A stretch of DNA of 64,000 bases, taken from the NCBI GenBank assembly GCA_019155205.2, contig JAHNZQ020000092.1:77539-141538 (forward strand), given 5' to 3'. Positions 1,730 through 62,615 of this stretch are shown one piece after another. Source of the stretch: Gracilaria vermiculophylla (Eukaryota > Rhodophyta > Florideophyceae > Gracilariales > Gracilariaceae). The notes below the pieces were generated by a model. That model saw only the letters and a list, made by a program, of their open reading frames with translations, did no database searches and had not been told where the DNA came from. Position 1 is the stretch's first letter, and each line of letters starts with the position of its first letter. Made by a program: the position numbers and the translations under genes.

Positions 1730-3129
1730 TTAGAGGTATCTTCAAGCCATAATCCTTCGTCCCAATTAGGTACCTCACAACATTTTTCATGCATTCCCAG
1801 TGCTGTGGGAGAGGCTGCGATGCGTACTTGCCCAACATTGAAACAGCAGTAGCTAGGTCCGGACGGGTCCGTGTGCTTAGAAACAACAGCGAGCCAAGCA
1901 CCTTTTTGTATGGAACATTGGCCATCGCAGAAGCCTCCTCCTTGGATGGAGCTGCCATGGAGTCATAGAGACAGTGTGACTGTGGCAGAGGAGTTGCCAA
2001 GAATGTAGCGTGCTCCATCCGAGATACCCTGATTATCTTTTCGATGAGTGGCCGCTGATGAAGGACAATACCATCATTTTCTTCCGCAATGGAAACACCC
2101 AAATAGAGATCAGTTAGACCTAAGTCTGAGACGTCATAGTGAGCTCGTAGTTCCGATTTCACCCAAGATGTGCGATCGGAAGATCCAAAGATGCTGATAT
2201 CGTCGACATAAGCCAACACTACGACAACATCTCAAGCATTTCCACGTACAAAGACACAAGGAACCGATTGAAGTTTTCGGAAACCAAGAGAGCAAAGGTA
2301 TGTGGATATATCTTCATACCAAATTCTCGGGGCCTCTCTCGTTCCATAAAGAGATTTCACAAGTTTGACGACTCGACCATCGGCGTCAGCTACGTTAGGG
2401 AATTTAGGGAGTTTGATCCAGACTGGTTTGTCCACCGGCATTGAAGCATGAAGGAAAGCGCCTTTGATATCAATATGTTGACGATCCAATTGCAAAGCGG
2501 TAGCAAGGACCATCATTACCCGAAATATTTCAAAGTTCAGCACCGGAGCATAAAGAATATCTCTGTCAGTAACCTGTTGAAAGTTTCCTCTTGCAACAAG
2601 GCGGGCCTTGAACCGTAGGGGTCGCCCTTCATGATCTCTTTTGAGACGAAAGAGAAACCCGGACGGTATAGGGGACCCATGATCAGGAGTTGCTTCTTCG
2701 AAGGTGCCAAGCTTGCGAATGGTATCCAGCTCTGTTGGGATTGCATCCATCCAATAGTCAGATTCAGCTGATGAGAGAGCTTGACGCAAGGTGGGCTCGT
2801 CAGACGTTGTTATTGCATCTGCAAGGGTTCGAGCAGTGTTGGCTGACTCAGCTTCGTAATCAGAGGCATAGCCGCCAAGGTCAGGGTCATATGTCGAAGG
2901 CTTGTCGGGGTAATGATTCAATCCACTGCTGCTGGCATCGTCACAGTCCGAAGAGTGTCCACCACGGTCTGGGTGGTAGGGTGAAGAGTTCTCTGGATAT
3001 TGAGTAAGTCCAATGGTACCTGTAACTGGTGCTGTTGAGGCGTTACCGTCATTACCGGAAGTGTTTGATGGAAGTGTCTGGGATTTTGTAGTGGAACGAA
3101 AACCAGAACGGGCTGGTGTTTCATCATCA
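1677..3129 (-). pseudogene. Copia-1 reverse transcriptase
   Basis: Copia RT reading leftward from the edge of the N gap. A Ser/Thr/Asp-rich linker is followed by classic blocks: RFKARLVARGN, DIKGAFLHA, the LVKSLYGTREAPRIWY block and LAYVDDISIFG (YVDD catalytic site near 2205). An in-frame TGA at 2232-2234 sits just before YVDD, so the copy as assembled would not make a full RT. The homology and frame are otherwise clean. Confidence 0.92.
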
Positions 3130-3229
3130 NNNNNNNNNNNNNNNNNNNNNNNNNNNNNNNNNNNNNNNNNNNNNNNNNNNNNNNNNNNNNNNNNNNNNNN
3201 NNNNNNNNNNNNNNNNNNNNNNNNNNNNN
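3130..3229. other. Assembly gap (100 N)
   Basis: Exactly 100 undetermined bases, a common placeholder length. On the right is the start of gag and on the left is the linker before RT, so the missing DNA should hold the rest of gag, protease and integrase. The true gap is therefore probably far larger than 100 bp. Confidence 0.95.
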
Positions 3230-3345
3230 AAAGCCTCTCCAAAGCCCTTAGCATTACAGGCAGCGTCAATTCGAATCCTCCATAACTTGTAGTCATTCTT
3301 CTCGTCAAGAGGTTGAATTCGAGTTTTCCATCCATCAGACTCCAT
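3230..3345 (-). pseudogene. Copia-1 gag, N-terminal fragment
   Basis: Begins at an ATG (3343-3345) about 110 bp past the primer-binding site. It encodes MESDGWKTRI... with LDEKNDYKLWRIRI, the Copia gag N-terminal pattern (LxGxNYxxWxxRI). The frame runs into the N gap, so the gene is cut by the assembly, not necessarily by mutation. Confidence 0.8.
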
Positions 3346-3454
3346 GACGTATACTTACGTATGGACAGGGGTGTCTTGTCCAGAAGGAGATGTCTATGCG
3401 CGGAATGGAAATAAAGGTGAGAGATAAGAACGGGTGTACTGCAGGCTAACGTGG

Positions 3455-3469
3455 GCTGGGCCCATAACC
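3455..3469 (-). promoter_or_regulatory. Primer-binding site, half of initiator tRNA-Met
   Basis: The plus strand reads GCTGGGCCCATAACC, the anticodon-arm sequence of eukaryotic initiator tRNA-Met including CAT. The element (minus) strand is therefore its complement and lies directly next to the 5' LTR. Drosophila copia uses a 5' half of this tRNA as primer (the hemivirus arrangement). A similar site is present in element B. Confidence 0.88.
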
Positions 3470-3696
3470 TCTTGAGAGGATGAACAGGTGGAAACAAGAT
3501 AATGGAAAGCTGAGGGCTTTGAGATATCAGTGATTAACTCAATGCCTTGTCTTTATAGGCATTGGAGATTTACGAGAGCATAGGGAACTACGATATATGC
3601 TCTCGTGAACAAGACAAATACAAATTATCAAAACCAGTTCTCGTTATATATAGATATACAAATTAGAACAAGATGCCAAGACTCAAAGTCTCTGAG
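3470..3696 (-). repeat. Copia-1 5' LTR
   Basis: Pair of 1009-1234, with the same internal hairpin (near 3570-3604). Followed on the plus strand by the TSD AAAATG (3697-3702). Confidence 0.9.
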
Positions 3697-9178: not shown

Positions 9179-10429
9179 GACTAGCGAAACGTTTTGGCCA
9201 AATTCGTCTCTGAGCTCGTCCGTACTGGCATGGTGTATCCGAATCCATCCTTTCCATGGGCATCTGCCCCGCTTCTCGTGCCGAAACCAGGGCCTGCGCT
9301 ATTTCGATTCACAGTCGACCTGCGCCCAGTCAACCATTTTACGGTGCGGCACCAGTTCCCTATGCCCAACATTGAGCAGGAGCTCCTACAACTCGCAAAG
9401 TCACGCTATTTTGCTACCTTTGATCTCTCTCACGGGTACTGGCAGTTTCCGTTTCATAAGGACTCACAGGAACTTCAGTCATTCATCACGCCAGATGGCG
9501 TATTCTCTCCAACTCGAGTTCTTTATGGCACAACGAACGCCACCACACATCTTCAGTCGGTACTCGCCTGTATTTTCCGGAAGGAACTTTTGCAGCAGTT
9601 AATGTACTGACTACACAACATTCTTTTACATAGTTTAACTGTCGAAGGCCTACTCAACGCGATTCTCACTCTGTTTCAAACATACGCACGGTACTGCATT
9701 CGTCTACACCCGAAGAAATGCATTCTGTTTGCGAAGTCCATTCGCTGGTGTGGAAGAATCGTATCAGCAGACGGCGTGCCCCACGACCCTCGACACCTTG
9801 AAGCACTCATTAACATGGAACCGCCCACAACCAGAGCACATCTGCAACAATTCATCTGTGCCATGCAATGGGTTAAGACTGGCATTCCCAACTTCGCCAA
9901 CATCATTGAATGCTTGCACGTGTGCATGGAACGAGTCTACGAAGTCGCCGGGAGGCGCACCAATTGCGCCGTATCGTCCGTACAGCTAGCCACCTTGGAC
10001 TGGGATAAACAAGAGCTGGAATGCTTCCAGATTTGCAAACAAGCTCTGGTCGACTTGGTCACACTCGCACATCGCGATGAAGATCAGAGGTTGTGCATCT
10101 ACACCGACGCTTCAGATACAAACTGGGCAAGCATTGTCACACAGGCTCCCCATGAAGATCTTCCCAAACCGCACAAAGATCAACGACACAGTCCTCTTTC
10201 ATTCTGTTCGGGGCGTTTTAACGCAGCACAACTTGGCTGGTCTACTTTGGAAAAAGAGGGATTTGAAATCATGGCCACAGTCGAGCGCATGCATTGGCTG
10301 GTAGCCACGGCCGCTGGTTTCGATCCCTTCACGGATCACAACAACCTCATCTTCCTCTTCGATCCACTATCTTTAATCCCGGATCTTAGCCATTCATCTA
10401 CAAGGAAGGTCTTGCGATGGGCAGTTTGA
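9179..10429 (+). pseudogene. Element D reverse transcriptase and RNase H
   Basis: Ty3/Gypsy RT: FVSELVRTGMVYPN, FRFTVDLRPVN, TFDLSHGYWQFP, then a broken catalytic box. The bases at 9602-9620 read M-Y-stop where MYxDD is expected. The RNase H frame (9776-10429) has YTDASDTNWASIVTQ, PLSFCSGRFNAAQ and FTDHNNLIFL. Stops at 9608 and 10427 and a frame change show it is inactive. Confidence 0.9.
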
Positions 10430-18655: not shown

Positions 18656-19408
18656 TTAAAATGAGCGAAACGGGGATGCTGCCGTTCCTATCCATCCAAA
18701 TGAACTGTTTGTGGACGCAAATACTGACTTCTCAATCTTTGTGAGTGGCTGGTAAAATTGTTTTCGACGCATTCGGGAGAAGGGATACTCAACATCAGCC
18801 TCCATCTTGTCATCTGCATCCGTCTCGATCGTGTGATCAGTATTCTGTATGATATTAATACCGAAGAACCTTAGTTTGCCAGGTCCGTGGTTGACATTTC
18901 CAAACTTGAACTTTTTGTCAAATGCTTCTAGGAACAGTTCAGCACGGTTACCTTCACCAGCAACTTGTAGGTCATCTACAATCTTGGCAACCGGAAGAAC
19001 TAGCCTTCTTTCTTCTTTCTTAAAGAATATTTGCGGTATATGCGAGGATTGCTGCAATCCGAGGTCCAGCATTACGTTGTCAGACTGATCTTGCCATTTT
19101 GCATTGGCGTTGACAAGGCCATATGCAGCCGTCAACAGTAACCATAGATGTGTAGACATCATTGAGCTTTCCTTGGGAGGTCGAATGTATACATCTCTTT
19201 GGGCTTGTTCTGTCTGAAGAAAAGCCGCCTTGACATCTGCTTTGTGTAATTTCCATTTACACAGGGAGGCAATCGATTCGAGGATTCGAAGTCCCGTCGG
19301 CGGACATGTCGCACAATCTTTGCTTGAATCATTTTTAAAGTCATCTTCATTCCCGTGCGGGGCAATGCGGGCTTTAAGCTCGAGGGATCCATCGTCATTT
19401 TGTTTCAC
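18656..19408 (-). pseudogene. Element B reverse transcriptase
   Basis: LKARIAPHGNEDD, ADVKAAFLQTEQAQRDVYI, LTAAYGLVNANAKW and KIVDDLQVAG in order, then LRFFGINI. The catalytic YxDD tyrosine is replaced (KIVDD), as in element A (KVVDD), so this is probably a feature of the family and not damage. The frame is open for 250 codons. Confidence 0.85.
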
Positions 19409-19623
19409 CTTGTATATTTTGTGGCTACTGATAACGTTGGGGCCAGCAGGAATCTTGTCATGTGGTACTGGAAGTACCGTTCTTCAAAACGATTCTTCTT
19501 CCAATTTATAAGGGTTTGCCAATGGATATTGGTCAAAACCCTGTGCATGGTATTTTAGAAAAGGTTTGTTACCAAAGTAGTCCACCATGGAGGAGAGCAC
19601 TTCATTTTGATTGCTAGTAAGTT

Positions 19624-38816: not shown

Positions 38817-40535
38817 TTATTCCGAATTTCTGGGATTATAATGCCTTGCTCGTTTGTGGTTGGAGAAGGAACCAGCATTCTTGTACGATTTGCGGCAAAT
38901 CCAGCAGGTGTCTTGACAACGTCCTGCTCTATGCGTATCCATATCAGCTTTGTTGCACGTGCTGTACGCACACTTTTCACAAGTGTACAGGTGACATTCC
39001 CGTCGATGAGCTGCAAAGCGAATTCCGTCTGGAAACTTCCTTTTGCAGTTCGGGCATTCAAGTTTTGGACCTATAAACGCTCGACTTTTTCGCGGCTTTT
39101 TAGCAACTCCTCTCCTCGGTTGTGCGGCCTGTGTTGCAGAAGGCTGACGCGTTGGCAGCATTGGAACAGGTTGAATTTCATCGCTTTCAGGAGCGGATGG
39201 CTGTACCTCCTGGTGAGCTCTTCGCACGCTCCTATTTTGTTGGCGAGGATGAACTGCTGTAGCTCGCCCGGTTCGCCCTGTCAATCTGTGAGGCGAGGGC
39301 CCTGAGCGTCCACGGCCTGAAATTGTTCTACGAGCTGAAGAAGAATGCTGTCGTAGCATTGCTTGAATCGCTTCACGTTGGCTGTCATCCATAATTTCTT
39401 GAAAAGGCACCCAAAAGCTAGGTTCTTCGCGATTTTGTTCCGTGAGATGTCCCACCGTGGCTTGTCCAGATAAAGGCCCAGGACGTTGCTGAACAGAACT
39501 CTGGGGCGCAGAAAGTTGGATATCTGAACGCTGTTGTCCCGATTGCTGGATACTAGAACGCTGAAGTCGGGAATCTTGGACTGGAAGCAACGCTAGCAGT
39601 TCTTGACGTTGGTCCTCTTGCAAAATTGGTTCAAGAATCCAGGTCGTTCTTCGACCTGGGCTCGATGATCGATCTCTTCTTCGCCTGGCTGGCTGAGCTC
39701 CCGAGGACTGATGTGCTATTAACTCTTGCATGGCCCGACGTTGATCATTTGTGGGATTTGCTGATTCTTCACTTAATGAACGTGCTCTACTTTGTCGACT
39801 GGACTGAGCCTGACGTTGAGGGCTTCTTGATGATCTTCCTCTGAAAAGTGGTGGTTCTGCTCTATCCTGAATTGAACCCGCTCGGCGGGGAATTGGAGGC
39901 GGTGGATTTTCAACTTCAGAAAGCTGTTTTGAAACAAACTCTCGAAGCGCTTGTCGCTGGTCGTCTTGCAAAATTGGTTCAAACTGGGGTGGAAAATTGC
40001 TGCCTACATTTGAAAGACGAACTCTGCCGTCTTGTGACAACCGCGATGTAAAAGGATTGTCTGCAGTTACTTCGCGGTTTGATTGGCGTCGGGGATTACC
40101 AAGTGCAAATCGATTCGAAGGTCCTGATTGTCCACCACCACGGCTTGGAGAAGCACTACGACGCTGCTGTGCCGGTTGACCTCTCAGTTGCTGCCGGGAA
40201 AGCATTGACTGAGCTGCTCGTTGTTGATTGTTTCTCGTTGCTGGGAGAAGACTCTCCACAACTGTTTGACGTTGAACATCATGCATTATAGGTTCAAGTT
40301 CCTGGACTGGCATGACTGGTACGTCTTGGCTACTTGAGGGCTGGGTGATTTGATTGTCTGCGCCGAGACGACGAGAAGGTAGAGAACCTGTATTTGACCT
40401 TTTCCTAGGCTGACGTGCTCGAGAGTTACTGCCAGATGCACTTCCTGAACTTTCTGTACTGTTTTGCTGTGCGAGTGATAGTCGCGACGCACGTGAGCGC
40501 TTCAGATCACTTCCTTGGCGAGTATTTCTATTCAT
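38817..40535 (-). CDS. C2H2 zinc-finger protein with five DDQRQ-type repeats
   Basis: Single open frame of 572 residues from ATG 40535 to a stop at 38817, without introns. Residues 1-490 are Gln/Ser/Arg-rich and look disordered. Within them a short motif recurs at about residues 80-97, 185-204, 262-276, 301-320 and 378-396, with consensus [LF]EPI[LM]x[DE]DQRQ followed by an amphipathic AL/AIxxL stretch. The C-terminus has three zinc fingers: C494-C497-H510-H515, C519-C522-H535-C540 and C544-C547-H560-H565. The long ORF, low-complexity but non-random composition and terminal fingers support a real nuclear protein, perhaps a transcription regulator. The repeats may bind one partner in several copies. 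No known family was recognised. Plus-strand frames over it are shadows. Confidence 0.8.
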   Translation of the reverse strand: MNRNTRQGSDLKRSRASRLSLAQQNSTESSGSASGSNSRARQPRKRSNTGSLPSRRLGADNQITQPSSSQDVPVMPVQELEPIMHDVQRQTVVESLLPATRNNQQRAAQSMLSRQQLRGQPAQQRRSASPSRGGGQSGPSNRFALGNPRRQSNREVTADNPFTSRLSQDGRVRLSNVGSNFPPQFEPILQDDQRQALREFVSKQLSEVENPPPPIPRRAGSIQDRAEPPLFRGRSSRSPQRQAQSSRQSRARSLSEESANPTNDQRRAMQELIAHQSSGAQPARRRRDRSSSPGRRTTWILEPILQEDQRQELLALLPVQDSRLQRSSIQQSGQQRSDIQLSAPQSSVQQRPGPLSGQATVGHLTEQNREEPSFWVPFQEIMDDSQREAIQAMLRQHSSSARRTISGRGRSGPSPHRLTGRTGRATAVHPRQQNRSVRRAHQEVQPSAPESDEIQPVPMLPTRQPSATQAAQPRRGVAKKPRKSRAFIGPKLECPNCKRKFPDGIRFAAHRRECHLYTCEKCAYSTCNKADMDTHRAGRCQDTCWICRKSYKNAGSFSNHKRARHYNPRNSE

Positions 40536-42711
40536 CGTACTTGTTCTTATGAGACACCTTTGTGAGTGAGAATAAAGTTCCTTTCGATGAGAATACCCAT
40601 TGCTGAGATTTGAAAAACGTACATCTTTCTTTTAACCTGATAACTAAAGAGCTACCACAGAGAGAAATTTTGTGAAAGCCTCACATAATTGTAGATATGA
40701 GAATAACTGCCGTCAATGATATAATTTTTAATTGTTAACTGACATTTTACTTGACCAGTTCTACTCTTCGTATGAAGTACCTTATATCAATTATGTTCTT
40801 ATGAGCTAAATATCTTGCTAAAGATTGTAAATTATTATTTGAAGGATGCCTTGTTCTTTCAGTTCTTTTATTTTGGCTCTGAAAATATTCATATATTGTT
40901 CTACATCCACGTCCAAATAACACACTCGGAATAACTGGTACATTCTGTATTACGTTATGTTTGCATTCAAATGGTACAGATTGTGAGTCATAAAACTTAA
41001 AACCTCTTTACAGTAGAACTCAATAACCTCTTATTCATGCTGAGACGAAAACTGGAATGCTCGACTATTCTTAGATACATTATTTTTTTTTATGTTTCTT
41101 TCTTGAAAATTGTTGACATGAGGATAAAATCTATGAGTACTAATGTTCGGGTATGTAAATACAATTCATTAAATATTATTCATAAGAAAAGAGCGTGTAT
41201 TTCATCCATTTTATTCCACCAAAACCAAAACTTATATTTTTCAGGTTATTAATTTCGTAAATAGTTATTGTATTCGAAAAATTGTTTTTCATCTCGAAAA
41301 ACTTTTCATTTCTATCACGAGCAAATTTTACATTAACATACGTAATGTTTAATAATTATATGTAGATTTCAAGAAACGGTGACCGGAACGAGAAGGGAAA
41401 GACGTAAAAAAGATAATTATCATTTCTATTTCGCGTTTTGACTGTTTGAGGAAAGAGAAAAAGAATTGAAGAAAAAGCCACTGACAAACATTCACAGCAA
41501 GCTATATAAATTGGTCTTTTCTGTTCGAATGTTGTATCAGGACTTCTAAAAATGAAAATTGTACTGGATCTTACGACTAGCAAAACGCCTGACTGCTTAC
41601 GTTTTTGAGGTTTGAGCTATAGTTAACAAAAACACGCAGAATGCAAATAAAATTCTTTAGAATTTTAATAATCGTTTTTTTTACACCGAAAAACGCTAAG
41701 GTAGATATAGTAGCAACTAATTCTTTCGTTAAGGTTTGTTTTACCAGGCATGGTTTTATGTTTGAAGTTGCCCAAGAAATATCGTGCATAGGAGATTGTT
41801 ATAAGATAATCACGGGATGTTTGTCACATGAATTTCATTGTTCATAATTTCTGAATTCTGTCCCTTTGATCATTGCCATAGTTGAAAGCGTAAACTGGCT
41901 CAACGTAAGAGCTCTTGATTTCTCAAAAATATACGAGAAAGTAATCGCATTGTAATTATTGGATGACATTAAACTCTCATAGATATACTTTTAATAGGAG
42001 AAAAAACCAATTGATGGCCTAAACAAAAGATAAATATGACTTTATTTGAAGCATTACAAATATTTAGTGTTTAATAATAAGATACAACCACCTTCCTAGG
42101 AAAATAAACGAAAAGTACTGATTCGAGCTGAAATGGTTGAAAAGCTTTAGTGCTTTATCATTTTCTTATCACAGCAACTAATGTTTTGTATGTATATTAT
42201 TGCATTATTAAAATGAAAAACAAATCATTGATATATGCAAAAATTGACAGAAACGATTATATTTGTCAATTTGTACCTTTGATTCTTGGGATTCGTCAGC
42301 AATTCTGGCGGTCTGTTTTCCAAGAATTTTTATTTTTCAGATTCACAGATTCACTCGCATTTTTACAGAACAACATTCACTATTGGCAATGACTCTTTGG
42401 AATTCATTAACGAATTTATAAGCAAAACTCCCATACTGGTTCACAGCAATGCAACTTATAGCAGAACGTTGGAGGCCTTGAGAGTTATTATTAAGCATCG
42501 CATGCTATAAATCAAACTTGAAAATCATCTGTATTTAGTCCTATGCAAAAATTAGCGATTAGAGAATGTACATTAAAATCCTACAACTATGAACAGAATG
42601 CCACGCATCTTTTTCCTAAAAGACTGAGAGAAGGCAATCTTCTATCCTGGAGCATACAGTACACCTAGAAAAAATATGCACTGCAAGTCAATATTTCACG
42701 ACCTCTGTTCG
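40536..42711. other. AT-rich intergenic region
   Basis: About 2.2 kb, clearly AT-rich, separating the 5' end of the zinc-finger gene from the 3' end of the first LPMO gene. No TATA box was identified for the zinc-finger gene. Possible small coding pieces on the plus strand (41641-41847; 42286-42510, after a TTTTTATTTTTCAG splice-acceptor-like site at 42340) have no recognisable domain. Confidence 0.5.
42286..42510 (+). CDS. Short unsupported reading frame, possible exon
   Basis: 75 codons, the last part rich in ordinary residues (TFTIGNDSLEFINEFISKTP). A pyrimidine tract ending in CAG at 42340 could be an acceptor for a final exon ending at TAA 42510. No homology was recognised and no donor partner was found. 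Recorded only because it is the least random frame in the region. Confidence 0.15.
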   Translation: MGFVSNSGGLFSKNFYFSDSQIHSHFYRTTFTIGNDSLEFINEFISKTPILVHSNATYSRTLEALRVIIKHRML

Positions 42712-43989
42712 TCACTGTTGTTCCTGTGAGCCTGGCGATAAACTCCACCAGAAACGGCATCTGAACTCTGTAACATGATCAATGAAAACGCAGACATGCT
42801 CTTCGTCACAACAAGGGGTGCCACCATCACAGGTTTTGTCAAGAGTGATGCAGTTTTGAGCAGCGGTTTCGAGCTCTGTTTGCTTGCGATCCCCAGAATC
42901 TTCATCAACAATAATAGTATCTTGCTGCGATGAACCATTTGAAGCCCCGGATACCTCCGGAGATGCATCATCAGTACTACTGGTGTCTTCGCCTTCAACA
43001 GGAGCTGATACAGGCTGCGGTAAGGATGGCGCTGGTACATCGCCTGCACTTGACCCATCGGCTGTAATTTGGACATCGGCGCAAGACCAAAATTCTTCTG
43101 GCACAGCATTTCCGCCACATTCCTGCATGGTTTCACTGTACGTACCACGTGCACCACCATCAGAGTCACACGTTGTGCCAAACGGATAGTTATAATTGAC
43201 GAAGTAATCTTTGAAACCTCGCGGGGCACAAGAGTTGGCCGTTGCCCAGTACCATTGCACGACACAGTGCTTACATTCGAAATCGGCTGGAAGTTGATAA
43301 CGCATGGTTCCAGAATCTCCTCCAACAATGTGCACGCCAACGTGGCCCGTATTTCGACAGGGCACGTACCAGCGTCCAGGATATGCGGCGTCTATGGGGC
43401 CGCATTCGTGGATTGTTTGCGTCGATGGATTTTCACAGCTAGAGTGAGGAACACGATTGAGTTTGACACAGTGGTTGTTCACAAAGCAACTGGCGTCAAT
43501 GTCGGGCTTTCCACAGGTATCCAGATTGCAAAGGAAGAATTCAAAATAGCCGTTGTGATTAGTATCTATCTCAGCGACGAAATCAACCTGCTGACCTTTG
43601 CGCCATTTGGAAACCATCGGTATCTCGGAGTATGGCATGAACTGACCGCCCACCATGTGCGCCTTGTCGCCCTTTGCATCTCCACAAAGTCCTGTTCTCG
43701 TAGCCGTGCCGAAAAAGTTTTTCGTCGGTTCGTACACAGTCCATCCTTCAGGAGGTAGATTTCCTGTTACTGCATCTTTTCCACCGCCGTTAAGACAATG
43801 GGGACAGTAGTCTGGCACCATTTCGTTCATGTCCATTCCCGGGGGATCGACATCAGGTTTGCACTTGTCTGTGTGATAGGCGCCGCGTTGACGTGGGGTG
43901 CACATCATGCCGTGCGCATTAGCGACGGAGAACACGGATAAAACTGCAAGAAGCACAAAAAGAGGCGATGCGGAAACGTTGGAAACCAT
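42712..43989 (-). CDS. Secreted AA15-like lytic polysaccharide monooxygenase (LPMO)
   Basis: 425 residues. The start at 43989 was chosen because the minus strand reads GCCGCCACCATGG there, a perfect Kozak context, and it yields a signal peptide (1-25) cleaved just before His26. A longer frame adds 19 poor residues. After cleavage His26 is the N-terminus, as the copper histidine brace requires. His145 in TNHNGYFEFFLC is the expected second histidine. VQWYWATANSC (about 244-254) and EEFWSCADVQI (298-308), with the axial aromatic, complete the AA15/chitin-binding-4 pattern. An acidic Ser/Thr linker (309-378) leads to a six-Cys end (C380, C387, C393, C394, C400, C411). It probably oxidises chitin, cellulose or a related cell-wall glycan outside the cell; the substrate cannot be told. 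Confidence 0.88.
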   Translation of the reverse strand: MVSNVSASPLFVLLAVLSVFSVANAHGMMCTPRQRGAYHTDKCKPDVDPPGMDMNEMVPDYCPHCLNGGGKDAVTGNLPPEGWTVYEPTKNFFGTATRTGLCGDAKGDKAHMVGGQFMPYSEIPMVSKWRKGQQVDFVAEIDTNHNGYFEFFLCNLDTCGKPDIDASCFVNNHCVKLNRVPHSSCENPSTQTIHECGPIDAAYPGRWYVPCRNTGHVGVHIVGGDSGTMRYQLPADFECKHCVVQWYWATANSCAPRGFKDYFVNYNYPFGTTCDSDGGARGTYSETMQECGGNAVPEEFWSCADVQITADGSSAGDVPAPSLPQPVSAPVEGEDTSSTDDASPEVSGASNGSSQQDTIIVDEDSGDRKQTELETAAQNCITLDKTCDGGTPCCDEEHVCVFIDHVTEFRCRFWWSLSPGSQEQQ

Positions 43990-44178
43990 GGTGGCGGCGC
44001 GTGTGTTTGTTGCAGAGCGCAACAAAGTCGCAAAATGATGATCCAAGGCAGAGGCGCTGCGCTCTTTCTTGTCTGATTAGGGAAAGGATGGGCAGTTTTC
44101 GGCGAGTAACGCGATGAGATACAAGACGGAGTGACGGAGAGTTTTGACCTTGAGACGGGCGTGGGGTAGAGAGCCTGC

Positions 44179-44185
44179 TTTATAG
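44179..44185 (-). promoter_or_regulatory. TATA box of the AA15-like gene
   Basis: The minus strand reads CTATAAAG about 190 bases upstream of the chosen ATG, nearly the same distance as for the second LPMO-like gene. This supports the orientation and start. Confidence 0.65.
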
Positions 44186-44189
44186 CGCT

Positions 44190-45104
44190 TGCTGGAGGCG
44201 GAATGATGTTCCGATTATGAAACTCTGTCCGGGCGAGCAGCGTAGCGCAGTGCTATGATTTTCAACTACGAACAGGAATTTGTGGGTAGTCTGACGTTGA
44301 CGGGCTTAGAGAAAAACTGGAAGGCGAGCAAGCAATGTGTAGGCGCCACGCATCGGCGAGTTTAGACGGAAGATGGAAATCGGGCCATTTGTTGGATTAT
44401 GCCGCCGATAAACAGCGGTACGCTGGAGGATGTCCCTGCAGCGCGGCCAAAAGCGCCGAAGGCGGCCGGGAACGTAGGTGGTGCGGCGGCGGGCACGAAG
44501 TTTGGCACACAGCGCTGTAGCGGCCGCTGCGCGACACGGTGGAAAGCGCGCGCACGCGCAAGTGCGCGAAAGAACGATGCGGCGCCCACACGTGGCGCGC
44601 TGTGCACTATGCCGGTGCACAGTAAGCAGACATGCCCCAGATACGAGTGGGCGCCGAATTTTGGTTCCAACCCAATTGCCCAATTTTACAGCGCCAAGTG
44701 GCGCATGCAGCATCCTCTTTGTCAGCGATACAAGCGCTTATCGTTTAGCCTCCAACGTGGCCTTCTTCCACAAGGACACCGCGCCGCATCCGCCGCCCAC
44801 TGTAAATGGATTTGCCACCTCCGATTTGCTGGCGTCGCTCCAACTTACAGTATAAAGCTACACGTGTATGAGGTCAAACTACCCAACCAAGCCGACATCC
44901 GTGGCATTCCATCTTATCCAATTTCAACTCTGCTGTGCTCAGCGCTTCGTTCCCTCCGACAGCCGCTCTGCTTTTCTGCTTTTCACGTCCGTCAATTCTC
45001 TTCCCGCTGTTGACACGTTTCGGAAGCATTATGTTCTTCACTATAGAAAGCATAGGTCATCATCTTTACAGCCTATCGTAAAAATCAACCTCTAAGATTT
45101 CATC
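44190..45104. other. Intergenic region with an unassigned plus-strand TATA box
   Basis: Upstream of the AA15-like gene; the part at 44380-44620 is GC-rich. A plus-strand TATAAAG at 44851-44857 is followed by pyrimidine-rich DNA but no convincing coding frame before the galaxin-like gene's 3' end. The 204-codon plus frame across 44399-45013 has no recognisable domain and is not called. Confidence 0.45.
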
Positions 45105-45213
45105 TTAAATGTGCTGCTCAGCTGGAACGGGGCCGTTCTCGAAGTAGTCTAAGATACCGATTGCGCTGAGGTATGGAATACGCTTCTCAACTCTTCGGCT
45201 GCTAACCCGGCAA

Positions 45214-45756
45214 TTAACAACGACTTCCAAACCTAACCGCTCCAGAGCAACACTTGTAAAACGTCGGATTATACGCCTTTGTTCCACAGCACAAATCAGA
45301 ACGAGAAGCACGAACCCGAACTCCACCACAACATTTGTAGAACGTCGGATTGTACTTCTGGCGTCCACAGCACAGATCTGATCGAGAAGCTCGAACCACG
45401 GCCCCTCCACAACACTTGTAGAACGTGGGATTGTACTTGTGCGTTCCACAACACAAATCCGAGCGAGAGGCTCGTACCACGGTGTTTCCGCAACATTTGT
45501 AGAACGTTGGATTATACGCCCGAGTACTGCAACACAGATTTGAGCGCGCTGCTCGCACAATTACGCCAGCACAACATTTGTAGAAAGTCGGATTGTATGT
45601 CTTCGTTCCACAGCATAAGTCCTTCGAAGATCCTCGAACCACTCTTCCGTTACAACACTTTGAAAACGTTGGTGAGTATGAAACTCCGTTGCACTTGAAC
45701 GCCACGACATTGATAATTGCGTATGTCGATAGCAAAATGAAAACCAGTAGCTTCAT
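45214..45756 (-). CDS. Galaxin-like secreted dicysteine-repeat protein
   Basis: 180 residues, intronless, from ATG 45756. A signal peptide (MKLLVFILLSTYAIINVVA, 1-19) is followed by six tandem units of 27 residues. The first is diverged (YSPTFSKCC) and five are near-identical: LCCG-x3-YNPTFYKCC-x-G-x2-VRASRSD, with YNPTFYKCC at 54, 81, 108, 135 and 162. Paired Cys with YNP recall galaxin, a coral skeletal-matrix protein, and galaxin-like proteins elsewhere. An extracellular or cell-wall structural role is likely. The DNA repeats (81 bp) are also alike, so the array probably expands and contracts. It lies between the two LPMO-like genes, another hint of a matrix function. Confidence 0.85.
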   Translation of the reverse strand: MKLLVFILLSTYAIINVVAFKCNGVSYSPTFSKCCNGRVVRGSSKDLCCGTKTYNPTFYKCCAGVIVRAARSNLCCSTRAYNPTFYKCCGNTVVRASRSDLCCGTHKYNPTFYKCCGGAVVRASRSDLCCGRQKYNPTFYKCCGGVRVRASRSDLCCGTKAYNPTFYKCCSGAVRFGSRC

Positions 45757-45866
45757 CTTCTTCTGTCAACTTCTGGACGGTGAGAATTAGTGGTTTGTTA
45801 GTTGCCACAGGAAAAAAAAAACCTTTGTGCCTCAGATGCGAAGAACGGTTAGTATGACCTGATCCC

Positions 45867-45874
45867 TTTTATAC
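45867..45874 (-). promoter_or_regulatory. TATA box of the galaxin-like gene
   Basis: The minus strand reads AGTATAAAAGGG about 110 bases upstream of the ATG, a strong TATA element. Confidence 0.7.
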
Positions 45875-46225
45875 TAAACTGGACGATCTTCGTCGTCGTG
45901 CAAATCTTTTGGCGCGTCCCCCCTCCCGAGGTACTCAATAGCAAAGCAACCACATTCAGGCACACATAGGGCGGCAACCATGAACCTCAATTCAATTTGA
46001 AACAGTTTCAGACCCACACATTTCCAGGCATCCACAAAATGTCATACAGATGTAACCGCGTCTTGTCGAAATGCTGTGCTAGATACGCCCCTTTAACATA
46101 TCAACGATTCCTCAGTATCCCTGACCAAAGCCCGGCGCGCAACGGCCACCTAGCTTTGAGGAATGCAGGCTGTAACCTTGAGACAAAATGTCCGAAGTCC
46201 TACTTGCTGGCTGTGCGACCCGCTG

Positions 46226-46378
46226 CATTGTCCGCATCTTGGTTTTCGGCAACTGTTTTGGACATGATGCTGCACGATATTGGCGCGAGACACTATTCGA
46301 CACGCGACATTGTCAGCATCTCGGTTTTTGGCAACTGCTTTGGTCATGATGCTGTGCGGCATTGGCGGGGGACTCGAC
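46226..46378. repeat. Imperfect tandem duplication (82-bp period)
   Basis: The block starting CATTGTCCGCATC at 46226 recurs as CATTGTCAGCATC at 46308, followed by matching GGTTTTxGGCAACTG and CATGATGCTG segments. The copies differ at about one base in ten, and the second is slightly shorter. It lies in non-coding DNA. Confidence 0.8.
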
Positions 46379-46399
46379 AGTTGAGTTCTTGCGCAAATC

Positions 46400-48526
46400 T
46401 TATCGAAGATGAAGGCTTGACAATCTTTCATACACGTTTCAAAGAGGGCATTAGAGTTCAAAACTGTGGACAAACCCAAAACGAACCGTTCGCGTAGCTC
46501 GCAACACACGATTGAATGTTTCGTGCTTTTTGCTGCATTAGACCCTTTCATAGAAAATTGAGGGTTCCGCCGATTGCATTTCTGGAACAGGCTCCTCCTC
46601 CATGTTGGAAAAAGTTCAAAACACAAAGAGTTGATATCGATTTGTTGTCAATCTCGCTCGATAAAGAACATGTTATCGAAGAGTAATTGGTTTGTCATTC
46701 TGTTTCTTGTCCCGCCATTTGGCAGTGCGCAAAAAAGGACATGGTGCGGTTGAGATACACGAATGATAAAGATGGATTCCCTGTCGGAAACATCAACCAT
46801 TGGTGAGGCCGCTTTTCTAAAATTCAAGTTTATTCGTACAAGGGCACTCAAATAAAAAAAAACTGCTTGTCCGCTGCCCTTGGAAACGATCCAGTGTTGA
46901 AGCGACTCTAAAAAATGTTCAATCCTACTTTTGGGCTAGTCCTCGAAAGGATTCGAATGGTCACGATGCAGTTTGATGTGGAAGAAAATGTACGCTCATT
47001 TCATGCAAATTACAGTATTTTCTGCAATGACAAGGAAAAGTGGTGTTTATGGTAGCTACGATTGGTATCCGGGTAGGGTAGGTGTAAAGCGCTAATTGTT
47101 TCGCTTTTCAAGATTTTGAAACGAAAGTCTTCCAAAAGTATGGGCCATCTGGCATTTTGACGCAAATAATGGATTTTACTACTGTAGGAAGGTACAGAAA
47201 TGAATTCTCAAAAAATGTCGAGCTCTAAAACCGTTTCAAAAACATTGGACATTTTATTTTTTAACGTCAGCATGTTTTTTTCAGCATCAAAAATGTCTGT
47301 CATTCGCAGAAATCAGATGCGGTAGAAAAGTGGGAATGTAAGAGGAGACACTTGAAATAACAGCAGGGAGTGAGTGCCATGTTGTTTGTTTGAAGCAAGA
47401 AGCGTTCTAAGGCTGAATGCTGAATGTTGTGCAAAGCGACGGTTTTTATACAGAAAAGGACCAAAATGATTGGTGTAGGGAAACGACTGTGCAATCATAC
47501 CAAGATGGCACACTTTCCATTACACGTTGGTACTTTTTGTTGGAAGGGAGGTTCTAAAATTAGTGGTGCAATATCCTAAAAATAGAATATTCTGCAATTG
47601 CAACTAATGCATGTTTTGGAAGCTTTTGTTGCCCCAAGAGAGCAACTGTGGTGTTTGCGAAAATAAAATATGAGAAGATGGGGGTGTAATATGGATGAAT
47701 TGTGATTGAGGCACGCGATAGGGGCACAACACATGAGTGTTCCGTCATCAAAACGTTGCTTGCCAAACTGCAAGTTTTGCATGGTGTTTGAGCTTGACTT
47801 GATAGCCGGCGTGCTTCACAAATTGACGGATATTGTGGATGAAGGTGGACTGACACGATTAACAAATTGGGCACATTGCGAAAACATGCAGTATGCTGCG
47901 ATGCCATAGCAAGTTGAATGCATCACAGAGCATTTGGCTTAAAAATGTTTTACTTGGGATGGAAGACAATGGCTGGTAATGTGTCCATATCCCTCTGGAT
48001 ATTGTGTTTTGTGGTGGCGAATATCATGTTCAGGTTTGCTGCCGATGCTCCCCACACACGATGAATGTGATGGTGTGCATTTCATTTGACTGGTGAATAC
48101 TATGGAGCTTGTACTTTACGTATACAACGTCGTTAATGAGCACCAGTAGCACAAGTCAAATAAAATCCATCACGCAGTTTTGAAATATAGAAATAAGTTT
48201 TAAGAACGTAATATACTGTAAATGTTATACAATACGTTATTAAATACCTGCCGCCATATTCGGTTGCAGAAGAGGATTTTTCTTTTTTTTTCTTTTTTAA
48301 ATGATTTATAACCGGAAGGGCATGAACTGAAACCATTCACGGGGTAATTTGGCAGTTGAAGTTGCGCTCGCGTCCCAAAAGGTGCCTGATGTACGTCAAG
48401 ATGGAGAGTTTATTCTTCTGTTGAGCATGAAGAAGGAAAAAAAGCATAAATTGAGTGGTGCTTGTTGTTCATGCGGCGCAGCACGTTGTCAATGGGCGAG
48501 ATATTATAAATGGACTCGCCAAAATG
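46400..48526. other. Intergenic stretch without supported genes
   Basis: About 2.1 kb of average to AT-rich sequence before the GC-rich island. All frames are short (under about 115 codons) with no domain. A T/A-rich run with TTCTTTTTTTTTC occurs near 48280-48300. Nothing else was identified. Confidence 0.5.
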
Positions 48527-49857
48527 CACGCGCATTAGAAACAGCGGAGCTGCGAATTTTGCGCCGGTCTGCGCGCGGCGCGCGGCGCGCGGGACACGTT
48601 GCGCGCCATGCACGCGTTGCGCGCCGCGCACGCGTTGCGCGCGGGTGCGCTCATTGCACGCGTGCCGAGCGCACGGGCGCCCGTTTTCTGTTCCGCCTGC
48701 GGCGGAGAAGGGGCGGCGCGGCGCGGCGCGCTGCGCGCTGGCGCCCGTCGCGGGGCGGGGCGCATTGCGCCGGGCGCAGAGCAATTGGCAATTGGCGCGC
48801 GCCCGCATCGGCGCGGCGCCAGAGGCGGGACGCGCGCCGAGGCGCGCCGCTGGCGCCGCGCGCCGGCGCACGTGGGAGCCAAGGAGGCACGGCGCGCGAG
48901 CGGCGCAGCGGCGCGCGACAGACGGCGCAGCAGCGCGGCGCGGCGCGGCGCGGCGCGGCGCGGCGCGACGGCGGCGCGCGGCGCGCTGGCGCGCTGGCGC
49001 GCGGCGGCGCGTGCATCGCGCGGCGGCCGACGAGCGTGGTGGATGCGCGCGGTGCGGGGAGGCGCAGGGCGCGGCAGGACGGTGGCGTGGGGCAGGGCGC
49101 ACCGGAGCTGGGAGTGGGCGAGCAGCGGAAGAGCGGCAGAGCGCGCGCAGCGCAAACGCGGGATGACGCGCGTGTGCGTTGAGGCACGTGAGAGGAGGTG
49201 CATTTGTGGGCGTTATTGAGGTGGCGACATTTAACGGCGGGCGGACTGGCGACGGACGGGGACTGCACACAGTGCGGCGCGAGGGGAGTGAGGTGCAGTG
49301 CGGGCGGAGGCGGCGGTTGATACAAATTGGATGAACGGTTGCGGCGCATGGAGGGGATGTGCTGTTGACGGCGGCGTGTGTGAGGCGACTTGGTGTTTTG
49401 CAGTTTCTCGACGTGTGCGAGGGCGTCGAAGGGGGGGGGGGAAGGGGGTGGGGCCAGCTGGCTCTGCGTGCTCGGCAGGTGCGGCTGCTGCATGAGCGCG
49501 CGCGCGGGGGAGGCGGGTGATGCGCGGCGGCGCGCGGCGGCGCCGCACGCGCAGCACGCGCAGCACGTGCTGTGAGCGAGAGCAAAATGTGTGGGCACGA
49601 GCGGCAGCGTGTGCTCATTAGGGTGACAAATGGTTTCGCCATGGCGTTGGAGGGGCGCTGCACGGCGGGAGACGGCGCGAGACGGCGGGGTGTTTGTGAG
49701 TGTCGCGCCATGCATGGGACCTAACTTGTTGACTTACGCTGCTGCACGCGTACGTAATGGGCGCGCGCGGCTGCGCGAGTACGTCAGTTTGTCGCTGGCT
49801 GCTCTGTCTTCCGCCTCGCGCGCGGTCGCCGCGCGCCATGACGTGTTCTGCGGCGCG

Positions 49858-49889
<32 letters not shown>

Positions 49890-50656
49890 TCCGCAACGCA
49901 TGGGCGCCGGCGCGCGGCACGTATGACGCGCCGGCGCGCGACACGCGTGCGCGCGCGCCGCGCACGCGCGCGCTGCCGTTGCGCGCCGCCGCGCTGGCCG
50001 CCGCAGCACTCGGCGCGGCGCCGACACATCGCGCGCGCGCCCGCCGCCGCCGCCACCGCCGCCGCCGCCGCGCGCATTGCCCAAGCAAATGACAGTGGCG
50101 CCGCGCCGCCGCGCCGCCGCGCCGCCGCGCCACGCGCGGTACGTGGACACGGCGCGCGACGGGTCGCCGCGCGCGAGCGGCCGCGCCCGCCTCGCTGGCT
50201 GAGCGCCCACCCCGCCGCCGCGCGCTACACGACACGCCCGCGCCGCGCCGCGCTACCCGCCACGGCGCGCCCAACGTGGCGCCCCTCGCCGCCGCCGCCT
50301 ACGTGGGCGCCGCCGCCGCCGAGCGGCCGCCTTTGGCTGACGTTGAGCGCCAACATACAGCCGCGCCACCGCGCCGCCTCGCCGCCGCATCGCCGTATCG
50401 CCGCATCGCCGCGCCGATTAGAGCGCCGCCGCCGCTGCCGCGCCGCGCAGCGGCCGCCACGCCGCCGCGCGCCGCGCCCGCGCCGCGCCCGCGCCGCGCC
50501 CCGCAACGTGCGCCGCGCCGCGCGCCGCCGGCGCGTGCGCGCGCCGCGCGCCTACGTGGGCGCCGCGCCGCCGCCGCGCGGATGTTTGGGCGCCGCCCCC
50601 ACCAAGGAGACAGTGACATGTTGTACCCGCGCGCGCGCGCTACGTTCTGCCGCGCC

Positions 50657-50687
<31 letters not shown>

Positions 50688-50834
50688 TTTCCGAGCGCAC
50701 AACGTGGGGCCGCCGCCGCCGCCGCACCACGTACGCGCGCGCGCGCGCGCGCACGCGCTTGAATTGCGTGCGCGCGCGCCGCACGCGCCGCGTCGCAACC
50801 GCTGCCGCTTCGCCGCCCGTGCTCTTCCGCGCCC

Positions 50835-50841
50835 TATAAAG
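50835..50841 (+). promoter_or_regulatory. TATA box of the second LPMO-like gene
   Basis: TATAAAG stands out in a GC-only context, 205 bases before the ATG. It is followed by a pyrimidine-rich leader (50860-51030), giving a plausible 5' untranslated region of about 170 bases. Confidence 0.72.
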
Positions 50842-51039
50842 TCGCGCGCCCCCGCCGTCGTGCTCCCCCATCGCTTCCCCCCACCACTACTCGCAGCAGC
50901 CTGCCACACTCTCGCCGATCCTCACACCGCCACCGCCTCCCGAACTCTCTCCGCCCGTCCCCCTTCCCCTCCCCCCTTTCCACCCCCTCCCCCTCTCCCC
51001 TCGTCGCCGTCCGCCGTCGCCGATCCGCGCCCCGCCGTC

Positions 51040-52188
51040 ATGATGCGCTCCCCCGCCGCGCTGCTGGCGCTCGCGCTTTCTCTGTTCGGCGCTGCGCGCG
51101 CACACCAGTCCATTTCGTACCCGTGGCCCATATCGCGCATGAACGCGTGCCGCATGGGCAAGTTCAAGGAATGCCCGGGGCCGTGCCCCAACGACGAGCT
51201 GCGCGTGGACCAGTCGCCCAACTACCCGTCCATCACCGTGTCGCGCAACGCGCTGGTCACCATCAACACCAAGCGCAACAACCACGGCGGCGGCTTCTCG
51301 CGCTGGAGCATCGTGAACGTGGCCGACATGAACGACAAGGCGGCGCACGACCGCGAGGCGTTCCTGTGGACGTGCGCCGACCTCAACGAGCAGAAGTGCG
51401 ACTCCATCAACATGGACCGCGACTGCTCGTTTGACCGCAGCCGCTCCTTCTACCACCACGACGTGCAGATCCCGCCCGTGTACCCGGACGGCGTGTACGT
51501 GCTGGGCTGGGCGTGGTACGGCGGCACGCAGGGCCACGGCAAGGGCGGCGACTTTGGCGACTACTACGACTGCATGTACATCAACGTGCAGGGCGGCGAT
51601 CTGGAGGAGTCGTACCGGCCCAAGTTCGAGCCGGGCGCGTCGGAGACGACGAGCGACGGCAAGTGCGCCGCGCGCACCAACCGGCTGGGCGACTGCGTGA
51701 GCGAGCCGTGCCTGGGGCGGCGCGCCGGGCTCAAGGTGCCGCGCGAGTTTGAGGGCAGCGGCGCGCCGCCGCTGCTGCAGAGCAAGCGCTTTGCCGGGCA
51801 CCAGATCGAGCGGCCGCCCGCCACGGCGCCGGCCGTGTACGGCATCAGCATCCGCATGGCCAACGAGCCGTCCGAGGTGCTGGCGTCGTCGGCGCAGGGC
51901 CCCATCGCGCCGCTGCGCCTCACGGGGCAGTCCATCACGGTGACGTGCGACGTGGAGGGCGACGTGGAGCGCGTGGAGTTCTACAAGCACGGCGAGGACC
52001 TGATCCGCACGGACACGGGCGCGCCGTTCAGCATTGCGGGCGAGTACGAGGTGGGCGGTGGCTCCGAGTACCGGTACAAGCCATTCCGGTACCGCATCGA
52101 GGACGACATCTACATGCTGTCGTGCGGCGTGTACGGCGCGGACGGCAGCGTGCAGTGGGCGCGGCTGGAGGTGTGGCAGACCAAGTAG
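51040..52188 (+). CDS. Secreted LPMO-like protein with C-terminal Ig-like domain
   Basis: 382 residues. ATG 51040 (ATGATG) was chosen because it opens a signal peptide (1-21, LLALALSLFGAARA) with His22 exposed after cleavage; the longer frame upstream is low-complexity. His22, His82 (NNHGGGFSRW), VYVLGWAWYGG (152-162) and DYYDCMYINV (174-183) form the pattern of a copper histidine-brace β-sandwich. Many Cys (37, 45, 49, 112, 120, 129, 178) suggest disulphides. A second β-rich domain follows at about 265-382: ITVTCDVEGDVERVEFYKHGE, then APFSIAGEY and SCGVYGADGSVQWARLEV, resembling Ig-like modules of carbohydrate-active proteins. Codon third positions are almost all G or C, unlike the AA15-like gene 7 kb away. 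Family membership in a numbered AA class is uncertain. Confidence 0.82.
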   Translation: MMRSPAALLALALSLFGAARAHQSISYPWPISRMNACRMGKFKECPGPCPNDELRVDQSPNYPSITVSRNALVTINTKRNNHGGGFSRWSIVNVADMNDKAAHDREAFLWTCADLNEQKCDSINMDRDCSFDRSRSFYHHDVQIPPVYPDGVYVLGWAWYGGTQGHGKGGDFGDYYDCMYINVQGGDLEESYRPKFEPGASETTSDGKCAARTNRLGDCVSEPCLGRRAGLKVPREFEGSGAPPLLQSKRFAGHQIERPPATAPAVYGISIRMANEPSEVLASSAQGPIAPLRLTGQSITVTCDVEGDVERVEFYKHGEDLIRTDTGAPFSIAGEYEVGGGSEYRYKPFRYRIEDDIYMLSCGVYGADGSVQWARLEVWQTK

Positions 52189-52600
52189 GCGGCGGCGGGC
52201 GTGCGCGCGGCCGTGCGCGCGGCGCCTCCTTGGAGCGTGTTTATAGACAACAACAAGCTTGGCAGGGGTGAAACCCTCCGCGGCCCCCCCCCCCCCCCCC
52301 CTACCCTTCGTGCGTAAATCAGCTCCGCGTGTATAAACTGAGAGTTAGCATCGCACCCGTGCCGTGCCGTGCCGCGCCTGCTGACGTCATGCGCGCCGCG
52401 CGCCGCACGTGCCGCGCATCTCGGCTGCGCACCCAACGGCGCGCACCAGGCCGCCGCCGCCGCCGCCGCCGCTGCAAGTTGAGGCCGCGCGCACCTCGGA
52501 CGCTCGAGGCGCTCGCGCGCGCCGCCGCCCAACGCAATTCAGCCGCCGCGCAGCGCCGGCGCGCTTGCCACATGGCCGCGTGTGCAGCTGCGAGTTGGGC

Positions 52601-53836: not shown

Positions 53837-54896
53837 ATGGCAGAAAGTGATTCACACGTTCCGCAAAATTCTGCCGAGTGCAATTTTCAGTGCGCTGGAA
53901 CATCGCAACAACTTTTGCAAGACGAGGAAGTATTTCTTGGCGCAGCGCTAGGGCGTGTTGAACAGCAAACTACATACGAAACAGTACCGTACTGTGCCAG
54001 TTGGAAACGGTGCAGTGGTCTATATCTTAGGAAAGAAGATCTGATCCGCCGCTCATACGCTCACAATAAAGAGCTTGGTCTATTTCATTTGATGCTGAAC
54101 CTTTCCTATCTCAACTGCGTGTGGTCTTGAACAAGTGCAGAGCTTATTAAACGCGGCAATAAAAGGACACCGTTGAGAATGGAGGAACTACTGGCGTACT
54201 TTGGTCTCGAACTAGCTACTTCTGTGCACCGGTTAAACCACCTGCGAGATTATTGGTGTCAGTCAGACCTTCTCAACATTCCGTTCTTTCAGAAAGTCAT
54301 GGGAAAAGATATGTTTCTGAACACAAGATCCGCACTCCGGATGTATGCTACATATAATTCTGATGTTGCTGTCACGGATCCCCTGTGGCGTAGTCGCCAA
54401 ATTCTCGAGCACTTTGCAAGAAATGCTGCTACACTTGCCGTTCCTGTTGGTGTAAGTACGCTCGACGAGAACACAATTTTTTGCAAGGCCGAACAGCCGC
54501 TCGTTTGTACATTAAGTCCAAACCAGTAAGGTTTGGAATTAGATTTTATGCATTAGTTGGCTGGTCGCATGCTTATCTACACAGCTTCCAAGACAACGGA
54601 TCAGGTAATAAGTCCGGGCAGACACCAATCCAACGGTACACAAATGTGTTTCGAAACCTGCGGGGTGCGATAGACCGAAAACTAGACGAACAGCTGGTGG
54701 GTAAGACGAAACCTAGTGCATTGTGGTGCGCACAAGTGGCGCACCAAACACAGCTTCATCCTACTCCTACGACCGGCCGTTTGATGGTGATGGATAATTT
54801 TTATACGCGCCATACATTGGCGCGACAGTTGGCAGCTCTCACTGATGGCGAATGTAAAATCTTGGGCACGGTTGGCTACAACAATGTGGATGGTAT
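53837..54896 (+). pseudogene. piggyBac transposase
   Basis: Starts at ATG 53837 (MAESDSHVP). The N-terminal domain is open to a TGA at 54128-54130. It continues in another frame from 54173 (MEELLAYFGLELATSVHRL) to STLDENTIFCKA, the first catalytic Asp (DE-N). A one-base shift near 54484 follows, then KPVRFGIRFYALVGW and MDNFYTRHTLARQL (second catalytic Asp), then CKILGTVGYNNVDG. The LTR insertion at 54897 removes the link to the third acidic residue. It is therefore broken in at least three places and inactive. Confidence 0.85.
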
Positions 54897-61437: not shown

Positions 61438-62271
61438 TCACTTCAGTGGTGCGTGGTCCGTCCTCAAGATAAAACGCGCACCTTCCGGGTAGGGGCGTAA
61501 AAGGAAAACCTCCCACACGATGGCCAGATATTTTCGCTCCGAGGGGGAATAATTCCATTCCGTAGATGTGAGGCTGCGACTCCAGTACCCGACGGGCTGA
61601 CGTCCACCTTCAAGTTGCTCCTGTAGGAGGGCACATTCGACCTGGTATTTGCAGACGTCAGTGTCTAGCACCATTCGGCCGTGCCGCTTCGGAAGTATCA
61701 AGATCGATGACTCTATTAGTCTCCTCTTCATGTTTTTAAAGGCTTTAAACTCCTCTTCCGTCAAGTTAGCCAATTGCGTCTGCTCGTGCCTCTCCGAGAG
61801 ACGATTTAGTGGCGCCGCGAGAAGGGAGAATTTCGGGACAAACCTCTGGAATACATTACACAAACCCAGGAAGGAGCGGAGCTTCGTCTGGTTTGTGGGA
61901 GGGTAAGCTTCCTTGATGGGGTCCTGAGTTTTTATGGAAACCTGTAGGCAGCCCGGAAGCACCACGTGCCCCGGGTAATCCACCGAGGACTTCAAAAAGA
62001 AACCTTTCTCCAGCTTCAAGGTGAGTCTAGCATCCTTTAGGAGTCGGAGCACGTGCTTCACAAGAATAAAAAGCTCCTCCACGCTGCGAGAGCATATGAT
62101 GACATCATCAATATACACCAAGGCGTACTGCCACTTCACCTTTGACAGGATTATGCCCCCTGCTCGTTGGAACGTAGCGGGTGCATTCTTCACTCCAAAT
62201 GGCATCCTTAGGAATCTGATGATCCCACAGTACGAGTTGAACGTTGTCTTATCCTTATCGGAGTCGTCCAT
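61438..62271 (-). pseudogene. Element E reverse transcriptase and RNase H
   Basis: 277 open codons: FNSYCGIIRFLRMPFGVKNAP, ALVYIDDVIICSRSVEEL (YIDD box intact), PTNQTKLRSFLGLCNVFQRF, VLDTDVCKYQVECALLQE (RNase H Asp), and WNYSPSERKYLAIVWEV. The RT N-terminal portion lies in shifted frames up to about 62600. It is a standard Ty3/Gypsy arrangement. Confidence 0.92.
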
Positions 62272-62615
62272 CTCAATCTGTCATTATCCGCTGTTGGCAT
62301 CCAGCGTGGAGAAAACGGACGCATCACCTAAAGAGTCGATGCATTCACCCATATGTGGTATCGGGTACGATTCGCGTACCGTCACCTTGCTGAGGCGTCT
62401 ATAGTCAATACAGAACCTCAAGAAGCCAACTTTCTTCTTGGCAAACACCACCGGGGTCGCCCAATTGGAATTGGAATGCTCGATAACGCCCTTCTACAGC
62501 ATCCGGCGGACCTCATCGGGTTCGAAATCGCACGCATGGGGTCTGACCGTCTTCGGGAGTTGATGTACCGGTTCCCAATAGGTGCGAGCTGGATCCTGTG
62601 CTTGGACAGGCTGAC

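Follow-up and report, generated by a model that had tools for sequence, protein, structure and literature searches.

A candidate new LPMO-like family and an AA15-type LPMO encoded near each other in the red alga Gracilaria vermiculophylla

A 64,000-nucleotide stretch of the genome of the red alga Gracilaria vermiculophylla (hereafter the window; C24:77539-141538 within a 44.8 Mb genome of 27 contigs) encodes three proteins, P1, P2 and P3, each of which carries a signal peptide as read from its open frame and which together lie inside 9.5 kb. We find it probable that P1 and P3 are both secreted copper proteins with a histidine brace, of the lytic polysaccharide monooxygenase (LPMO) type and likely to cut wall material, and that P2, encoded between them, is independent of both. 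This reading is built on the signal peptides, the positions of the histidines and their conservation, the predicted fold, and the alignment of the copper ligands. Judged by its sequence, P1 (window 42712-43989, minus strand; 425 amino acids followed by a stop) is an ordinary AA15 LPMO, already known in kind; the AA15 family is on record in Rhodophyta in the legend to Fig. 2 of PMC5823890. P3 (51040-52188, plus strand; 382 amino acids followed by a stop) is a candidate for a new LPMO-like family: its predicted LPMO-fold domain is closest to the AA11/AA9 branch, and the family is named by no curated model at hand.

In P1 the cleavage context ...SVANA/HGMMCTPRQRG leaves His26 directly after the signal peptide, and His145 sits in DTNHNGYFEF. 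In P3 the context ...GAARA/HQSISYPW likewise puts His22 directly behind the signal peptide, as in the LPMO superfamily, and His82 sits in NNHGGGFSRW. All four positions had been given in a preliminary description of this DNA and proved exact when the frames were read directly. As a check on chance, a crude signal-peptide rule of our own was applied to 138 ATG starts in window frames of at least 100 amino acids, nested starts counted; 10 passed, and a histidine fell exactly at an allowed cleavage site in three of these, one being the start of P1 and the other two overlapping starts of P3. The exposed N-terminal histidine of P1 and P3 is thus more than chance. The same description had called the two proteins unrelated-looking, which holds at the sequence level, the family profiles aligning over 28 columns only (probability 24.8). 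Common descent of the two families by sequence was considered and found unsupported, because this profile-profile comparison aligned the signal peptide and the histidine alone. The best named matches of both P3 (82%) and P1 (78%) are from Agarophyton chilense, followed by Gracilaria domingensis and Gracilariopsis chorda. The hexamer TATAAA occurs at window 44184, 45873 and 50835, that is, at -195 relative to the start codon of P1, -117 for P2 and -205 for P3.

P1 consists of a signal peptide (residues 1-25), a catalytic domain (26-310), a low-confidence linker and a C-terminal Cys-rich tail. It scores 49.7 bits against Pfam LPMO_10 (cut-off 23) and matches the Thermobia AA15 structure 5msz with an expect value (E) of 4.9e-16, which places its sequence in the LPMO_10/AA15 lineage. 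The Thermobia match starts with residue 26 on chain residue 1, making His26 (43912-43914, minus) the predicted first copper histidine after signal cleavage, and His145 (43555-43557, minus), the predicted second, aligns with His91 of 5msz as counted on the printed alignment. In a family alignment of 57 rows, His26 is kept in 44/44 rows that reach the site and His145 in 57/57. The axial place is held by an aromatic residue, Phe300 (43090-43092, minus), which aligns with axial Tyr184 of the Thermobia enzyme in domain 3 of the alignment; a passage of PMC8668981 describes the axial residue of LPMOs as variable, with Phe in chitin-active AA10. The assignment to the LPMO type in the preliminary description therefore stands for P1 as membership of AA15, and for P3 as far as its predicted fold and the alignment of its ligands go. 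The Cys-rich motif of P1 (residues 380-414; 42748-42852, minus), recognized from its sequence and touched by Pfam Toxin_9 at E 0.24, below the cut-off, may be an undescribed binding module. It contains WW and was seen by eye in 8 of 10 P1 relatives inspected. PF00734 (CBM1) is carried by 7 of the 120 listed relatives.

For P3, the predicted model shows the LPMO beta-sandwich, and fold and ligand alignment together delimit an LPMO-fold domain at residues 22-190 (51103-51609, plus). In a family alignment of 36 rows, with counts taken over the rows reaching each position, the candidate first copper histidine, His22 (51103-51105, plus), is kept in 30/30, and the matches begin at this residue in 45/45 listed LPMO rows. 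The candidate second copper histidine, His82 (51283-51285, plus), is kept in 33/33, as are Asn80 and Arg88, and pairs with His71 of 7P3U, in a piece of the alignment that scores low. The candidate axial residue, Tyr175 (51562-51564, plus), aligns with Tyr133 of 7P3U and is Tyr in 34/36 rows, with one Phe and one Val; Cys178 is kept in 35/36. Among LPMOs, AA11 ranks first for P3 both by sequence profile and by fold, with an identity of 15-17%. The profile matches are weak (E 0.0079 and 0.042), and the fold is nearly tied between AA11 and AA9.

The surroundings of the putative copper site depart from those of AA11. Asn80 (51277-51279, plus) stands at the distal axial Ala69 of AfAA11A, a residue taken from a passage of PMC8668981, and Gly173 (51556-51558, plus) occupies the place of the AA11 second-sphere Glu, whose role is treated in part of PMC12186267; both correspondences were counted on the alignment. 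P3 thus has Tyr-Gly where AA11 has the Tyr-Glu second-sphere pair described there. Lacking this pair, and with AA9 almost level with AA11 by fold, P3 was not filed as a plain AA11. A Glu or Gln two residues before the axial aromatic is common, though not universal, in LPMOs, and because Gly173 stands in its place, P3 was filed as a candidate LPMO only. The same source notes that the corresponding Glu of SmAA10A lies elsewhere in the sequence and that no second-sphere residue is universal in LPMOs.

Curated models fit P3 poorly. Against Pfam, P3 itself gave one sub-threshold Ig-like (immunoglobulin-like) match, to Big_7 (E 0.00054). PF03067 (LPMO_10) was matched by none of 27 full-length rows (E <= 1) or 17 domain rows (E <= 10) of the family, and PF03443 (AA9) by 2/17 domain rows, with a best E of 0.049, below the cut-off. 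NCBIfam gave no match for P1, P2 or P3; its silence on P3 says little, because the AA15-type P1 is also unmatched there. AA14, AA16 and AA17 were absent from the 50 VIA rows listed for P3, which excludes none of them. AA18, a cupin enzyme, was considered as well. Passages of two papers name this family, PMC13431639 (citing Santos et al. 2025) and PMC13353379. Among viral models, most of the named top rows were phage structural proteins or proteins of fibronectin/Ig type; two viral BFVD entries without a name, M1I575 and M1H9N6, matched the P3 model with Foldseek probabilities of 1.00 and 0.99.

A further tie to LPMOs lies outside the catalytic domain. P3 ends in an Ig-like module (residues 260-382; 51817-52185, plus), and a similar C-terminal module ends all four AA15-type proteins inspected (L003, L008, L025 and L030). 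Comparison by hhalign of 31 P3-family modules (30 used) with the four AA15-type modules gave a probability of 97.6% and an E of 3e-12, against a best value of 0.072 in 20 column shuffles and 0.55 for 52 P1-type tails. One P3-family paralogue matches an AA15-type module directly (E 8.7e-6), and Big_7 touches three of the four AA15-type modules, again below its cut-off. On these sequence comparisons, the common module links the P3 family to LPMO biology independently of the catalytic domain.

The P3 family is numerous in this genome. Of 15 P3-like places, 11 are stop-free within the match and four are broken or partial; the NNH motif is present in 10 of the 11. In the late-starting paralogues L016, L017 and L019, the upstream stretch encodes a signal peptide and a histidine, followed by an apparent short intron. 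A protein search that scored only the 7,995 candidates with most shared words found 29 relatives, of which the six with an organism name are all Agarophyton or Gracilariopsis. We call the family undescribed in the sense that no P3-like red-algal family was found among the papers listed by our searches of the open-licence PMC literature, CAZy and subscription journals lying outside this scope. No prokaryotic source of P3 was found at the sensitivity of one contig scan, in which none of 36 pattern matches was confirmed by tblastn. A foreign origin suggested by the high GC content of P3 (0.96 at third codon positions, GC3) was rejected, since 13 paralogues of both families span 0.41-0.98. P3 lies in a GC-rich island with simple repeats (window 48500-52500): in 2-kb steps the GC content is 65.5% at 48-50 kb and 75.2% at 50-52 kb, and 36-56% in the other steps. 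Some LPMO paralogues elsewhere in the genome likewise lie in GC-rich stretches.

P2 (45214-45756, minus; 180 amino acids) is most likely a secreted galaxin-repeat protein independent of P1 and P3. It carries six 27-residue units, whose Y[N/S]PTF motifs are spaced by exactly 27 residues, and it matches PF24748 with E 8.7e-41 (139.4 bits, cut-off 28); together with a signal peptide read by eye, this bears out the earlier view of the middle protein as galaxin-like. It is the sole galaxin-type gene found in the genome, where a direct search added two poor matches (E 0.024 and 0.39). Elsewhere, four relatives were found at E <= 0.001 among 1,735 candidates, and the only named one is from Adineta ricciae, a rotifer. 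Five of the six units could be compared, the last being too short. Nonsynonymous divergence (dN) between them was 0.06-0.44, and synonymous divergence (dS) was at least 0.97 where computable, which it was not in 2 of 10 pairs. Because dN is well below dS, the repeats look old and maintained by selection on the protein.

Copper binding, catalysis, substrate and a role at the wall would extend these observations as follows. Secretion and signal cleavage would free His22 of P3, so that a single copper is held by His22 and His82 at the mature N-terminus and has Tyr175 beneath it. Once a reductant had made Cu(I), O2 or H2O2 as co-substrate would give an oxidant that breaks a glycosidic bond of a wall polymer, while the Ig-like module may dock, tether or orient P3. 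P1 would likewise bind a single copper at its mature N-terminus and draw on a reductant together with oxygen or H2O2. The targets of P1 and P3 would be polysaccharide chains in the wall of the alga itself, most likely cellulose.

Several observations weigh against P3 as an LPMO. Taken one by one, its matches to LPMO sequences are weak (E 0.008-1.1). The piece of the P3/7P3U alignment that pairs His82 with His71 is collinear but scores -0.8 bits; in the paralogue L014, His61 of AfAA11B is aligned to His69, one off the conserved His68; and L018, one of the 11 stop-free places, has no NNH motif in its open frame. In Foldseek, LPMOs reach a modest TMt of at most 0.51 with the P3 model, the fungal effector NIS1, which is not an LPMO, outscores them (0.59, 0.63), and complement C3 and NCAM chains appear in the top 10. 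Finally, because the second-sphere Glu is replaced by Gly173 and the distal Ala by Asn80, the site may not be that of an active oxygenase. This altered surround is the starting point of the chief rival explanation, to which we give a limited but real chance: P3 would be an LPMO-like brace copper protein without oxygenase activity, like X325/Bim1, that captures, delivers or senses copper at the wall. Precedents exist: according to a passage of PMC10952591, X325 and Bim1 have the brace in common and are linked with the transport of copper, their activity not having been convincingly demonstrated, and brace proteins without reported peroxygenase activity are mentioned in part of PMC12186267. However, the axial Tyr is retained in nearly every row, the Ig-like module is common to P3 and AA15-type LPMOs, the family is large in this genome, and the lack of any universally conserved second-sphere residue in LPMOs lessens the force of Gly173. 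It is highly improbable that P3 is a degenerate or structural LPMO-fold protein, neither copper-bound nor enzymatic, such as a wall-binding lectin-like protein. No Pfam LPMO model reaches its cut-off on P3, NCBIfam is silent (but also on P1), and NIS1 illustrates that a similar sandwich need not be such an enzyme; yet a non-metal role would not demand both histidines in all rows that reach them and the Tyr in all but two.

The preliminary description had further proposed that the three genes form a small extracellular-matrix or wall-remodelling locus, which found no support: neither strand, spacing, a nearby transposase piece nor co-location counts give any sign of a unit. A single functional locus, with joint action of a matrix protein and two LPMOs, would accord with the signal peptides on all three proteins and their short span, but P3 lies on the opposite strand to P1 and P2, 5.3 kb from P2, and downstream of P3, at a distance of 1.9 kb, lies a transposase piece (54131-54526; Pfam DDE_Tnp_1_7, E 3.9e-17), presumably of piggyBac type. 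L025 (G000:C27:705103-708871), another AA15-type gene that includes the Ig-like module, and a P3-like piece are arranged tail to tail, 1.4 kb apart, but this partner is a piece of 146 codons. Under uniform gene placement, ignoring gene density and contig ends, 2 of 11 AA15-type genes (10 such places in another count) within 8 kb of a P3-like place correspond to P 0.0020; the pair in the window had, however, prompted the question, and without it the count is 1/10 (P 0.056), or 0/10 with only stop-free P3-like places. In A. chilense, the nearest relatives of P1 and of P3 are on contigs differing in size (43,256 vs 20,880), and the only named one of the four P2 relatives is non-algal. We consider a common locus very unlikely; the grouping is most likely a coincidence.

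Elsewhere in the window, several retroelement remains, recognizable as pieces of reverse transcriptase and of RNase H (RVT_2, RVT_1, RT_RNaseH), occur at 2235-3533, 18659-19483, 9611-10426 and 61441-62280. A 604-codon open frame (38820-40631, minus) has no Pfam match at 0.001; its N-terminal part is of low complexity, and C2H2-like finger motifs are seen by eye near its C-terminus.

If P1 and P3 are both LPMO-type proteins, as we favor, the alga could be using them as tools to work on the wall of its own cells. The number of LPMO families is small, and the addition of new ones has extended the set of polymers that can be cleaved oxidatively. With 11 stop-free places and no score that reaches a Pfam LPMO cut-off, the P3 family would point to a photosynthetic host investing in oxidative tools for its own wall, and its altered copper surround offers a test of which residues the histidine brace needs. 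Activity of an LPMO on agar or on the cellulose of red algae would be useful for seaweed processing and would open the question of how soft galactan walls loosen in growth. A more far-reaching view we think quite unlikely when taken as a whole: P3 would be the founder of a new family of LPMOs that expanded in red algae and whose copper surround is unlike that of the aligned AA11 enzymes; it would have evolved for cutting or trimming the wall of the alga itself, the sulphated galactan (agar) network included, and would share its wall-docking Ig-like module with AA15 enzymes of the same cell.

Among known systems, the galaxin of stony corals (PF24748) resembles P2 in its signal peptide, its tandem 27-residue units with paired Cys and its Pfam match, whereas P2 comes from a red alga and is single-copy as far as found, the likeness being one of sequence. 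P1 shares with TdAA15A of Thermobia domestica (5msz) the fold, His1, the His91 equivalent and the LPMO_10 match, and differs in having Phe300 for Tyr184, Thr143 for Ala89, the low-confidence linker and the Cys-rich tail. X325 and Bim1, listed from fungi in a passage of PMC10952591 and belonging to a family marked by an Asp as the fourth ligand of the copper, are likened to P3 by description rather than by sequence, through a histidine brace (predicted in P3) and an unproven oxygenase activity. AA9 differs from P3 in that its Pfam model reaches only the two domain rows mentioned above. The AA11 enzymes (AfAA11A, 7p3u; AfAA11B, 9exj/9hdg; AoAA11, 4mah) align with P3 at His1, the candidate second His, the candidate axial Tyr and an IP...G.Y.L.W.W...Y..C block; in contrast, P3 has Gly for the second-sphere Glu, Asn for Ala69, the Ig-like module and a red-algal host, AA11 being found mostly in fungi according to part of PMC6950343. 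AA11 was itself discovered by "module walking", as retold in a passage of PMC5320794, and the module link between P3 and AA15 parallels that discovery.

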